Assembly (NCBI GenBank): GCA_943787725.1
Contig: CALSNM010000011.1
Location: 1 to 64,000 of the forward strand
DNA length: 64,000 nt
Reading direction: 5' to 3'
Origin: an uncultured Flavobacteriales bacterium
Lineage (GTDB): Bacteria > Bacteroidota > Bacteroidia > Flavobacteriales_D > Parvicellaceae
Of this stretch, positions 7,224-14,274 are shown in pieces. Position 1 is the stretch's first letter. Every line of letters starts with the position of its first letter. The position numbers were made by a program, and so were the translations under genes. The notes under the pieces were generated by a model. It saw only the letters and a program-made list of their open reading frames with translations. It searched no databases and had not been told where the DNA came from.

Positions 7224-7801
7224 CTAATGTATAGCCGGTCGCCAAGGCAGGTATTCAATTACTTCACCTTCTTTGATAAGAATCTCTTCCAATCTAGATT
7301 CTACTTCTTCAGTAGAAAAGTATCTTTCAGCTAATTGAAGAAATATATCAACATGTTCTTTTTCTTGAAGGTAAAGGTTGCTATAGAATTTCTTTAACTC
7401 TTTATCTTCAGTTGCTTCGCTTATCAATTTAAAACGTTCAACACCTCTCATTTCAGCAACTGAAGCAAGTATTAGACGGTCCAGTAGCCTTTTTTGGGTG
7501 TCTTCGCGAATAACAGAGGAGAGCCCTTTCATATATGGATCTTTCTTGAACTCAGAGTCAATAGTAAGTCCACGCTTATACATAATGTCATAAACTTGCT
7601 TAAAATGCAATAGTTCTTCAACTGCAATTTGGTTCAAGTCAGCTATTATGTCTCTTTTATCGGGTATTTTGCTATTAATGAAAGGCACATGTTAGCGACT
7701 TTTCTTTCTGCATCAGCATGATCTTGTAAAAAGACGTCTATGTTTTCGACTACTTGTTTTGCCCATTCTGCAGGAGTATCGTACTTTAGTTTTATTTCCA
7801 T
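7224..7801 (-). CDS. miaE: tRNA-(ms2io6A37)-hydroxylase, MiaE-like di-iron enzyme (one frameshift)
   Basis: MiaE hydroxylates the isopentenyl group of ms2i6A37 in tRNA using a ferritin-like di-iron site. The uninterrupted frame begins at a GTG at 7688 and lacks the first helix. An ATG at 7799-7801 gives MEIKLKYDTPAEWAKQVVE and DHADAERKVAN, which supplies the first iron-binding Glu if one base is shifted near 7680. The other ligand motifs are visible: VEELLHFKQV, EMRGVERF and LQEKEHVDIF. The start lies four bases after the corrected trkH stop, which suggests one transcript. The MiaE assignment rests on these motifs and on size; another ferritin-like hydroxylase is the alternative. Confidence 0.8.
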
Positions 7802-10782: not shown

Positions 10783-11308
10783 TTAAGCAGACTGTGCGTC
10801 ATGAAAACTATCTCCAGCTTTTTCGATTATATTTCTTAAAGGTTTGAAGTATGTTCTTAATAAAGGCCATTTGTCATCATACCTTTCAAGCAGCGTGTTT
10901 ACCGGCTTTTTGTACTTTTTGAGATTGAAGGTGATAGCGGAAGGTGTTATTTTAGGCTCGCATAGCTCAGAAACTGCTATTTCCGTTAATTTTCCATTCT
11001 CGTTGATGTGCCTTGCTTGCTGCAAGTTCGTATTTGTCCAACAGTTCAATAATGTTAGAGTATTTATCATTTTTGTAAACTGCGACTTCTATGTCTTTTC
11101 TTTCTTCTATCGAAATATGTCCAGGTTCAATTACTAGGTTAGATGAGTAGTTGATAGTTAAATTAAGAGCCATATGAACTGCGCCTCGTATTGCTTTTTC
11201 AATTGTTTCTAAATCTGTATTTTTAGAAATGATAAAATCTTTTGTAGCTTCAGATAGAGCTATTGAAATGCGCATTTCTTTATTGATTTGTGCTACCAAA
11301 GAGGTCAT
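10783..11308 (-). CDS. Unrecognised protein with possible C-terminal HTH (frameshifted), probably the 3' part of the gene at 11280-11933
   Basis: Two overlapping frames make one product. The first (10967-11308) reads INKEMRISIALSEATKDFII and onward; the second (10783-about 11020) continues HINENGKLTEIAVSELCEPK to the end. They join if one base is shifted near 11015. I do not recognise the family. The C-terminus, with KLTEIAVSELC, KITPSAITFNLKKY and a DKWPLLRTYFKPLRNII tail, has the helix spacing of a small DNA-binding domain, but this is only a visual impression. The 5' end overlaps the upstream gene by 29 bases in another frame. One more shift would fuse both into a protein of about 390 residues. 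Confidence 0.5.
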
Positions 11309-11933
11309 AAAGTGCTGTAAACTCTTTTTGTAGTTTCTCCTTCAGTAATAGATTTTCCTCTTTTGTATTTTCTAAAGTTGTTTTCTGATTTTGCAAATTA
11401 CGAAGCACGAGGTTGTGTGTTTCTAGATTGTTGTATTCTTCTTTTATTCTCGAAGCAAAAACATTGTACAGTAAATTGCCTATTGTTGCTTTTTGTTGCG
11501 TGGTAATTTTTGTTCCTTTAGACATCCCGAATATTCCGGCGTGCGGAACTTTTATTATAAGCATGTCAAACATCCGGTCAAAAGGGGAGATGAATTTAAG
11601 GCATAAGTAATTATTATCGTTTTCATCTTCAAGTGTAAGTTGTTGAATCTTTTTCTTGGTTTTTACTCTATTACTAGAAACTTCTTTCATAAATAGAAGC
11701 ATGTCTTTTCTAAGCCAAACATATGCAGCTCTGTCTTTTCTTGCTTTTTGCAACAAATGGACTTTGTTTTTTAAGGATGGTTTGCTCGTGCCTTGCTCAG
11801 TAAAACATTTCAATACTACTTCCTTATCTGGGTTACAGTAAGCCGCATAAGCCTCCGTGACCCCAGGAATGTAATCCCTAAGGTTCTCTGCTAGATAGCT
11901 TAATGGATGTTCTATGAATGTGTAGCGCAGCAT
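11280..11933 (-). CDS. Unrecognised GAF-like and coiled-coil protein
   Basis: A protein of about 217 residues from an ATG at 11931-11933; a TTG at 11975 would add 14 residues. The first 170 residues look like a compact alpha/beta sensor domain, with strands such as YLCLKFISPFDRMFDMLII. A strong heptad-rich coiled coil follows (roughly residues 175-205, including NLQNQKTTLENTKEENLLLK). This is the usual layout of a cytosolic sensor linked by a coiled coil to an output domain. That output is probably encoded by the overlapping downstream frame at 10783-11308. No enzyme motif is visible. Its upstream region carries the TTAAGT array, so it may regulate itself (inference). Confidence 0.5.
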   Translation of the reverse strand: MLRYTFIEHPLSYLAENLRDYIPGVTEAYAAYCNPDKEVVLKCFTEQGTSKPSLKNKVHLLQKARKDRAAYVWLRKDMLLFMKEVSSNRVKTKKKIQQLTLEDENDNNYLCLKFISPFDRMFDMLIIKVPHAGIFGMSKGTKITTQQKATIGNLLYNVFASRIKEEYNNLETHNLVLRNLQNQKTTLENTKEENLLLKEKLQKEFTALYDLFGSTNQ

Positions 11934-11947
11934 GTTTAAGTACGAAG

Positions 11948-12144
11948 TTAAGTAATTTATTGAGATTAAACTCAATATATTAAGTAATATTTTAAGTGGA
12001 TATTAAGTCGGCTTGATTAAAAAGTTAAGTCTATTCATATTGCTTAACTCAAGTAGACAGAGAAAAGTAAATACGTATTATTGTTTTAATTAATTTTTTG
12101 TGACATATTTATTAAGTTAATAATTAAGTATTAGTGAAGTTAAG
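11948..12144 (+). repeat. Array of seven TTAAGT hexamers, helically spaced, in a divergent intergenic region
   Basis: Exact TTAAGT begins at 11948, 11980, 11992, 12003, 12025, 12112 and 12124, all on the plus strand, with a near copy (TTAAGA) at 12140. Start-to-start distances are 32, 12, 11, 22, 87 and 12 bases, close to whole turns of the double helix. The array fills the space between two divergent unknown genes. A dyad, TATTGAG-6 nt-CTCAATA (11958-11977), lies between copies one and two. The most natural reading is a multi-site operator for a cooperative DNA-binding protein. Confidence 0.6.
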
Positions 12145-12613
12145 AAAAGACATATATAGATTGAAAGATTTACCTTTAATGATTCAGATATTATATGGGT
12201 TAATACGTTTAGTATTTTTTATTATCAGGTGCATTTTAAAATTATTTTCTAGACTTATTTTTTTTACACACGCGAAGTTATCAGCTTTTAACAAGAGTAA
12301 AATAAAGCCTTTAATGGATTCATTTTACGAACACCTGTATCATCTGGCATGTGACGCTTTTGATTGTGGTGTTGAGCAGCAAAATGAACAACATATTAGC
12401 GAAGAGAAAGAAATAGTTATTCCATTGATTAATAGAATTGGTAAATTTATTTTACAAGTTGTGCGACTAATTATGGGAATCAAGAAGGTAGTGAAAAGAA
12501 AAAAACAGAAGAAGATTTTAATGAATCGAAAACAACATGATCAAAAGAAAAAAGTAATAATCAGCGCTTACCTTGCTCGTTTCCAGGCTTTATTTCGAGT
12601 TTTAGAGTATTGA
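12134..12613 (+). CDS. Unrecognised small membrane-associated basic protein
   Basis: A 159-residue protein starting at a GTG (12134) or possibly an ATG at 12179. I do not recognise it. Residues about 15-45 are strongly hydrophobic (IQILYGLIRLVFFIIRCILK), suggesting a membrane anchor. A second hydrophobic stretch lies near residues 103-115. The C-terminal third is very basic (KKVVKRKKQKKILMNRKQ). It is transcribed away from the GAF-like gene, and the last near copy of the TTAAGT repeat falls inside its first codons. A short gene at 12648 follows 34 bases downstream. Confidence 0.45.
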   Translation: MKLRKDIYRLKDLPLMIQILYGLIRLVFFIIRCILKLFSRLIFFTHAKLSAFNKSKIKPLMDSFYEHLYHLACDAFDCGVEQQNEQHISEEKEIVIPLINRIGKFILQVVRLIMGIKKVVKRKKQKKILMNRKQHDQKKKVIISAYLARFQALFRVLEY

Positions 12614-12647: not shown

Positions 12648-12812
12648 ATGATGGAAAACAGTAAATGGTACAATAAGTTTCTTGGGTTACAAGAGGATAT
12701 TCATAAAGTCAATTATAGGGATAGAAGGGTTGATATTTATGAACTCTTTAAGAAAAATAAATACAAAACAAGACCTGAAAATAGTAAGGAAAAACCAACT
12801 CAATCTAAGTAG
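12648..12812 (+). CDS. Small unrecognised protein of 54 residues
   Basis: A short frame starting with two ATG codons (12648 and 12651), preceded by the purine-rich AAAAGGA. The product begins MMENSKWYNKFLGLQEDI, has a charged middle (HKVNYRDRRVDIYELFKK) and ends in a Lys/Pro/Ser-rich tail. It has no signal peptide or membrane segment and no family I recognise. It lies between the small membrane protein and the phosphohexomutase, both on the same strand. Its reality rests on context and codon composition only. Confidence 0.35.
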   Translation: MMENSKWYNKFLGLQEDIHKVNYRDRRVDIYELFKKNKYKTRPENSKEKPTQSK

Positions 12813-12863: not shown

Positions 12864-14274
12864 ATGACGAAGATTAAGTTTGGAACAGATGGATGGAGAG
12901 CAATTATTGCCAAAGAATTCACTGTAGATAATGTTGTAAGGATTTCCGAAGCAACTGGAAATTGGACAAAGAAGAATAACATAACGCTTCAATAGTGCTG
13001 GGGCATGATTGTAGATTTGCGGGTGAAATGTTTGCTGAAACCGCAGCTAAAGTATTTGCTTCTCAAGGGCATAAAGGTTTTTTAGCGAAGAATTTTGTTT
13101 CAACTCCAATGGTTTCATTAGGAGCTGTTCGACTACAATGCGTCTTTAGGAGTTGTGCTTACAGCAAGCCATAATCCTCCGTCTTATAATGGGTATAAAT
13201 TAAAAGGGGGATTTGGTGGTCCTTTAAGCCCTGAACACGTCCAGGAAGTTGAAGATATTATTTCAGACAATGTAAATATTGATATTGCTTCTTTGTCGAT
13301 TGAAGAATTCGTAAAACAAGGATTTATTGAATATGTTGATTTAGAAAAATTATACTTGGATGCTGTTCGAGAAAATTTTGACTTAGCAGCTATTGCAAAT
13401 TCAAATATGAATTTCGCTTATGATGCAATGTATGGTGCTGGTCAAAATGTACTAAAGAAACTATTGCCAGAAATGACATTCTTGCATTGCGATGAGAATC
13501 CATCATTTATGGGGCAAGCGCCTGAGCCGATTGATAAAAATTTACAAGAATTTTCTCAATTGATAAAATCAAGAGGAAATATTGCTGCGGGTCTAGCTAC
13601 TGACGGAGATGCTGATAGAATTGGCTTGTATAATTCAAAGGGAGAATTTGTTGATTCTCATCACATTATGCTGTTACTAATGCACTACTTGCACAAAACA
13701 AAACGGTTGAATGGTAAAGTTGTTGTTGCAGCCTCTACAACTCCTCGAGTTGGACGTTTAGCTGAAAAGTGGGGATTAGATTTCGATATGGTTCAAATTG
13801 GTTTTAAACATATTGCTGCTCAAATGTTGACTGAAGATGTTTTAGTTGGTGGAGAAGAGAGTGGAGGTATCGCTATTAAAGGACATATTCCAGAAAGAGA
13901 TGGTATCTGGATGGGATTAGTTCTTTTTGAATTCATGGTTAAATCTGGAAAATCATTAGAAGAGCTGGTTGATGAAATTTATGACTTGGTTGGAGAGTTC
14001 AAATATTGGAGAGATGATTTACACCTTTCTGAAGAATTGAAACAAGAAGTTATTGCCAATTGTAAAGCCGATAAATACCAATCTTTTGGTCAATTCCAAG
14101 TACAAGAAGTTCAGAACAATTGATGGGTATAAATATATTCTTAGCGAAGATGAATGGTTAATGATTCGTCCTTCTGGCACAGAACCAGTTCTAAGAGCTT
14201 ATGCTGAAGCAAAAACCCTTGAAGGGGCAAAGGCTATTCTTAAAGCTGCAAAAGCCGAATTGGGAATAGGGTAA
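12864..14274 (+). CDS. Phosphoglucomutase/phosphomannomutase (alpha-D-phosphohexomutase), three frameshifts
   Basis: Interconverts sugar 1- and 6-phosphates, feeding central carbon and cell-surface sugar pathways. All four family signatures are present: the phosphoserine loop TASHNPPSYNG, the Mg-binding DGDADR, the sugar-binding GGEESGG and the phosphate-binding RPSGTEP. The N-terminus MTKIKFGTDGWRAIIA starts at 12864. The frame breaks near 12992 (a stop in place of the expected strand continuing VLGHDCRFAGEMFAETA), near 13130, and near 14095 (just before TIDGYKYILSEDEWLMIRPS). The total of about 470 codons is normal for the family. Intact motifs in all pieces make indel error more likely than decay. 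Confidence 0.85.

Follow-up and report, generated by a model that had tools for sequence, protein, structure and literature searches.

A TTAAGT repeat array as the probable operator of an adjacent, undescribed regulator family in Flavobacteriales

Described systems with comparable sites and domains

In direct-repeat boxes of the OmpR/PhoB type, half-sites recur every 11–12 bases. The window studied here, which is the whole 64-kb stretch of DNA that was analysed, contains an array of TTAAGT repeats in front of the gene of an undescribed regulator, and the half-site period in its family (f1) is similar, at 11–12 bases. However, the spacings differ in f8, the second family of a 29-locus set, and the regulator protein has neither a receiver domain nor an OmpR winged helix according to Pfam. 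Autoregulated repressors with multi-site direct-repeat operators, as a comparison from general knowledge, also have sites over their own promoter and a divergent gene, but the present regulator differs from them in its undescribed family, its unusually large array (up to 11 copies), and the variable orientation and spacing of its half-sites. NtrC-type sigma54 activators (ZraR and NtrX), some of which carry an N-terminal GAF domain, resemble the regulator in its predicted GAF-like N-terminus and in the predicted lid-like segment before the C-terminal helical domain. However, the AAA+ core is replaced in the regulator model by one long helix, Pfam gives no Sigma54_activat or HTH_8 match, and the promoter boxes at the regulator loci are of the sigmaA type instead. 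The TAACTGA direct repeats of Beggiatoaceae are likewise short, AT-rich, and intergenic, but 169 sets of them occur in one genome (PMC4679880), compared with essentially one TTAAGT array per genome here. A literature search found no paper describing TTAAGT arrays.

The array is probably the operator of the adjacent regulator family, whose protein would control, and probably repress, its own promoter and, in f1, the divergent gene.

The array and the promoter of the regulator gene

The array consists of eight exact TTAAGT copies (Table 1), spaced in order by 12, 32, 12, 11, 22, 87, and 12 bases, in a stretch with a GC content of 22%. A first-order Markov model gives a mean of 0.75 copies for this stretch, and eight copies were reached in 0 of 20,000 simulations. 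The earlier note had counted seven copies, all in one orientation, with less than one expected from the base composition; the uniform strand and the expectation are borne out, and the count is corrected by the overlooked copy at 11936. Over the whole window, 65 copies of TTAAGT were found against 74 expected, that is, without enrichment, and the only hexamers equally dense among all 211-base stretches are low-complexity ones (TTCTTC) or belong to the TTAAGT array.

Table 1. Features of the regulator locus, in coordinates of the window
Feature	Position	Strand	Remarks
Regulator gene	10783..11933	-	Start ATG at 11933; ~382 aa when intact in relatives
TTAAGT array, 8 exact copies	11936..12129	+	11936, 11948, 11980, 11992, 12003, 12025, 12112, 12124; presumed operator
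TAACTTCG, near-consensus sigmaA -7 box of regulator gene	11943..11950	-	One mismatch; near match at -17
Degenerate copy TTAAGC	12042..12047	-	Conserved position in genus, ~-115 from regulator start
Degenerate copy TTAAG	12140		
Divergent small basic protein with hydrophobic segments	12134..12613	+	GTG start, 159 aa
Second small ORF, MENSKWYNKF...YELFKKNKYKTRPEN	12651..12812	+	Tentative; by eye

In the window, the reading frame of the regulator gene is shifted twice, near 11.32 kb and again near 10.98 kb, and the gene appears as three overlapping frames (ORFs 11280–11975, 10967–11308, and 10783–11070). In three genomes of the same genus (G001–G003), the gene is a single intact frame, with 84–87% identity over the first part. 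Indel errors in the assembly appear likelier than decay of the regulator gene alone, because two other genes of the window are also affected: the phosphoglucomutase gene (12864–14274) is split into several frames and the hydroxylase-like gene at 7224–7688 is shortened, with intact copies of both in L028 and L029.

The -7 box of flavobacterial sigmaA has the consensus TAnnTTTG and spans positions -12 to -5 relative to the transcription start (PMC9723704). Within the 60 bases before the ATG, TAnnTTTG occurs at 18 of the 29 loci, against 2.4 expected, and its first base mostly lies 12–20 bases before the ATG; transcription should therefore start nearly at the ATG. The overlap of repeats and promoter box is directly visible in f1, where the -7 box overlaps a repeat (ACTTAACTTTG), and in the window the box TAACTTCG overlaps the copy at 11948. 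In f8, the repeats are situated directly upstream of the -7 box. Since the regulator's promoter is overlain or adjoined by the sites in these two ways, repression is the most likely outcome; the preference for repression over activation is drawn from this geometry, and for f8 activation is also possible. No -7 box could be recognised for the divergent gene in the TAnnTTTG search.

The same geometry bears on the reading that the repeats act in RNA, as binding elements of a 5' leader similar to the Beggiatoaceae TAACTGA repeats (PMC4679880). RNA elements can take the form of short direct repeats that precede genes, and the orientation in the window is uniform; nevertheless, this reading is highly improbable, as a -7 box that in most loci precedes the ATG by 12–20 bases would leave the mRNA almost leaderless and most repeats untranscribed, and the orientation flips between families.

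In f1, the architecture of the operator candidate is fairly fixed. The distal pair lies ~195 and ~183 bases before the ATG, where the divergent small gene begins, and the proximal pair lies ~30 and ~18 bases before it (20 and 8 bases in the window's genus); each pair is 11–13 bases apart, and extra copies are located between the pairs. In f8, the sites are mostly reversed in orientation, with a common palindrome ACTTAATTAAGT, and few are found at the start of the divergent gene. The orientation is mixed in several genera and is not conserved across families.

The phasing of the copies in the window is better than under random placement, with p ~0.008 at a period of 10.5 and <0.001 at 11, several periods having been tried. 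The f1 spacings favour a period near 11 (R ~0.6), and the f8 spacings of 5, 9, 12, 18, and 23 bases show no clear period (R 0.17–0.35). Helical phasing, from which the earlier note derived binding on one face of the DNA, is thus retained for the window's family; as the phasing does not extend to f8, binding on one face does not hold in general. These differences of site orientation and spacing between families, together with the frameshifted gene copy of the window, are among the points that speak against the operator reading, as are the missing -7 box of the divergent gene, the scarcity of f8 sites at its start, and a C-terminal protein domain that resembles no solved DNA-binding domain clearly.

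Recurrence of the array and its confinement to the regulator locus

Regulator homologues are present in 17 of the 39 genomes of the family, patchily in 47 of the 399 genomes of the order, and in 13 of the 396 genomes sampled from the class, as a rule with one copy per genome. Between families, the protein identity is <30%. The earlier note had named recurrence beside homologues of the flanking gene as a check, and TTAAGT repeats indeed occur at all 29 loci of f1 and f8, where 190 copies were observed upstream of the start codon against 21.4 expected, and where the leading hexamers are all part of the TTAAGT motif. Twelve further loci are also enriched, including families f4, f44, and f62. In genus g140 of f62, TTAAGC replaces TTAAGT at four loci, as expected if the protein and the site change together. 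An array without function, arising from AT-rich composition and local duplication, would fit the 22% GC of the region; it is scarcely credible given the enrichment over composition-matched models at every locus, across families whose proteins share <30% identity.

The confinement of the sites was assessed by dense triplets, defined as three TTAAGT copies with gaps of 3–15 bases. Of 20 genomes that have the gene, 11 show such triplets at the regulator locus, with few elsewhere, and the total across 20 genomes without it is 2, so that the array is directly seen to be kept with the gene and to be nearly absent where the gene is lacking. Similarly, the palindrome ACTTAATTAAGT occurs once per genome, at the regulator gene, in 5 of 12 f8 genomes and is rare elsewhere. 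Elsewhere in the assembly, which totals 2.73 Mb in 29 contigs, TTAAGT pairs 4–7 bases apart do not exceed the control level. The control pattern, which is the motif read backwards, is commoner than the motif but differs in dinucleotide content, and avoidance of the motif is therefore not claimed. A wider regulon was rejected as a candidate, as neither dense triplets nor 12-spaced pairs rise above the control level at other places. Arrays of similar density at many unrelated sites, which the earlier note regarded as contradicting its proposal, are not a feature of the genomes scanned.

The array could instead be the operator of a different and wider regulator, with the adjacent gene merely one of its targets, and some small probability belongs to this reading since the C-terminal domain of the adjacent protein is only a putative DNA binder. 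However, a wider regulator would need sites elsewhere and in genomes without the gene, where dense arrays are at chance level or absent, and the variant of the site follows the lineage of the protein.

A single array in each genome, accompanied by its own adjacent gene, would also suit a maintenance site that occurs once per chromosome (origin-, terminus-, or centromere-like) and is served by its neighbour, as in iteron/Rep and parS/ParB. In addition, the locus lies roughly near the change from positive to negative GC skew, the presumed terminus, in G028, G120, and G180. Such a site is nonetheless improbable: the skew around the G003 locus, which is 40 kb from dnaA, keeps the same sign over a long distance; no skew switch occurs at the array in the window; the gene is distributed patchily, in 47 of the order's 399 genomes; the sites are linked to the regulator promoter; and the f8 loci share an mnmA neighbourhood, so that their positions are not independent. 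Two positional candidates were set aside. The distance to dnaA is 40 kb in G002 and G003 but 1.5 Mb in G028, and a GC-skew position suggestive of an origin or terminus is found in three genomes, not in G003.

The operator reading pairs a regulator family that lacks a Pfam or NCBIfam model with a probable recognition sequence, derived from co-conservation at <30% protein identity. A known site is rare among uncharacterised Bacteroidota regulators and opens binding, direction of control, and signal to joint testing. It is unusual for sites to be so nearly restricted to a single locus in each genome, which sharpens the question of the circuit's purpose. There is a small chance that the once-per-genome array and the coiled-coil protein form a nucleoprotein assembly that goes beyond the control of two genes, acting for instance as a bistable memory switch or as a site of chromosome organisation, with a DNA-binding domain of unsolved type.

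Predicted regulator protein and its gene neighbours

The regulator protein has no sequence match in Pfam, NCBIfam, PHROGs, PADLOC, or PDB, and an identity as a defence or phage protein was rejected, as PADLOC and PHROGs gave just weak rows at chance level. The predicted model (mean pLDDT 77.5) begins with a mixed domain of GAF-like character, continues through a helix ~75 residues long and a small segment, and ends in a helical domain at the C-terminus. Residues 1–170 match phytochrome and other GAF domains moderately in structural comparison, with Z 6.5–8.3 over 120–150 residues; the Foldseek E is above 0.03, and Pfam gives no GAF match. For residues 197–279, the lid regions of the sigma54 activators ZraR and NtrX top the structural list (Z ~9, rmsd 3–4, ~80 residues), and no sequence match to the lid subdomain was found. 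Both structural matches are moderate and suggestive. The AAA+ ATPase core, with its Walker A/B motifs and GAFTGA loop, is absent: Pfam and NCBIfam give no match, and the model has a long helix in its place. The earlier description as a GAF-like/coiled-coil protein is thus supported by the model for the coiled coil, and for the GAF-like fold by a match that is only moderate.

The C-terminal domain ranks with the best-conserved regions of the protein, with W, YE, AI, and P invariant. Modelled alone from 34 sequences, it is predicted as a compact helical domain (pLDDT 91.6). It has no clear match in PDB, where weak rows of winged-helix DNA-binding domains reach Z up to 4.2. A Fis-type helix-turn-helix, proposed from a sequence match by eye, was not confirmed by fold and family searches, including Pfam HTH_8. 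The possible DNA-binding tail of the earlier note corresponds in the models to this conserved domain, which has no clear match to a solved DNA-binding domain.

We infer that the adjacent protein is the binder, that it binds as an oligomer, and that a ligand controls it. A GAF-like sensing domain would be followed by a long coiled coil for dimerisation, then by a segment resembling an AAA+ lid, and finally by a C-terminal domain of helix-turn-helix-like type. Through this last domain, the protein would contact several TTAAGT half-sites as a dimer or larger oligomer, and the occupied sites would most likely repress the regulator's own transcription. In f1, the divergent gene of the small membrane protein would be co-controlled via the distal pair at its start. 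A signal at the GAF-like domain may either release or strengthen binding. The self-regulated divergent system suggested earlier remains the best reading, with co-conservation of the array and the gene established; the divergent partner is conserved within f1, and its relation to that of f8 is weakly supported.

The 159-aa divergent protein carries the family motif EHLYHLACDAFDCG in the C-terminal part of its first half and has no Pfam match. Within f1, the conserved partner is small and basic, has hydrophobic stretches, and carries a motif resembling EKIYSRACKTFD. The f8 partner has 134–186 aa and contains EILMSRALRFF. A common origin of the two is possible and no firmer, because their profiles match over the short motif only (hhalign, P 0.0085, probability 4.7). 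In g140 of f62 and in f4, other genes occupy the divergent position, and the constant core is the regulator with its array. Downstream in the window, the ORF at 12651–12812 has the pattern ELFKKNKYKT.PEN, which resembles small ORFs in the same place in L030, L036, L037, and L039; these may tentatively represent an unannotated family of small genes.

In genera g1, g3, and g4, the unit of regulator and array is flanked by the phosphoglucomutase gene on one side and trkA/trkH on the other; it has different neighbours in g7 and g8 and lies near mnmA in f8. The two elements stay together while the neighbourhood changes between genera. In many f8 genomes (loci L139–L158), the interval from the divergent gene to mnmA also contains a conserved ORF of ~64 aa with the pattern LMDVVRKYP...FTCGFS.N or FFGFS.N, and next to the unit lies a gene of XRE-like HTH type (MSI.ERLQMVIKMN). 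Separate from and unrelated to the regulator locus, a tandem repeat TTAAGTGGAGTAAAT is present at G029:C442:18194-18244.
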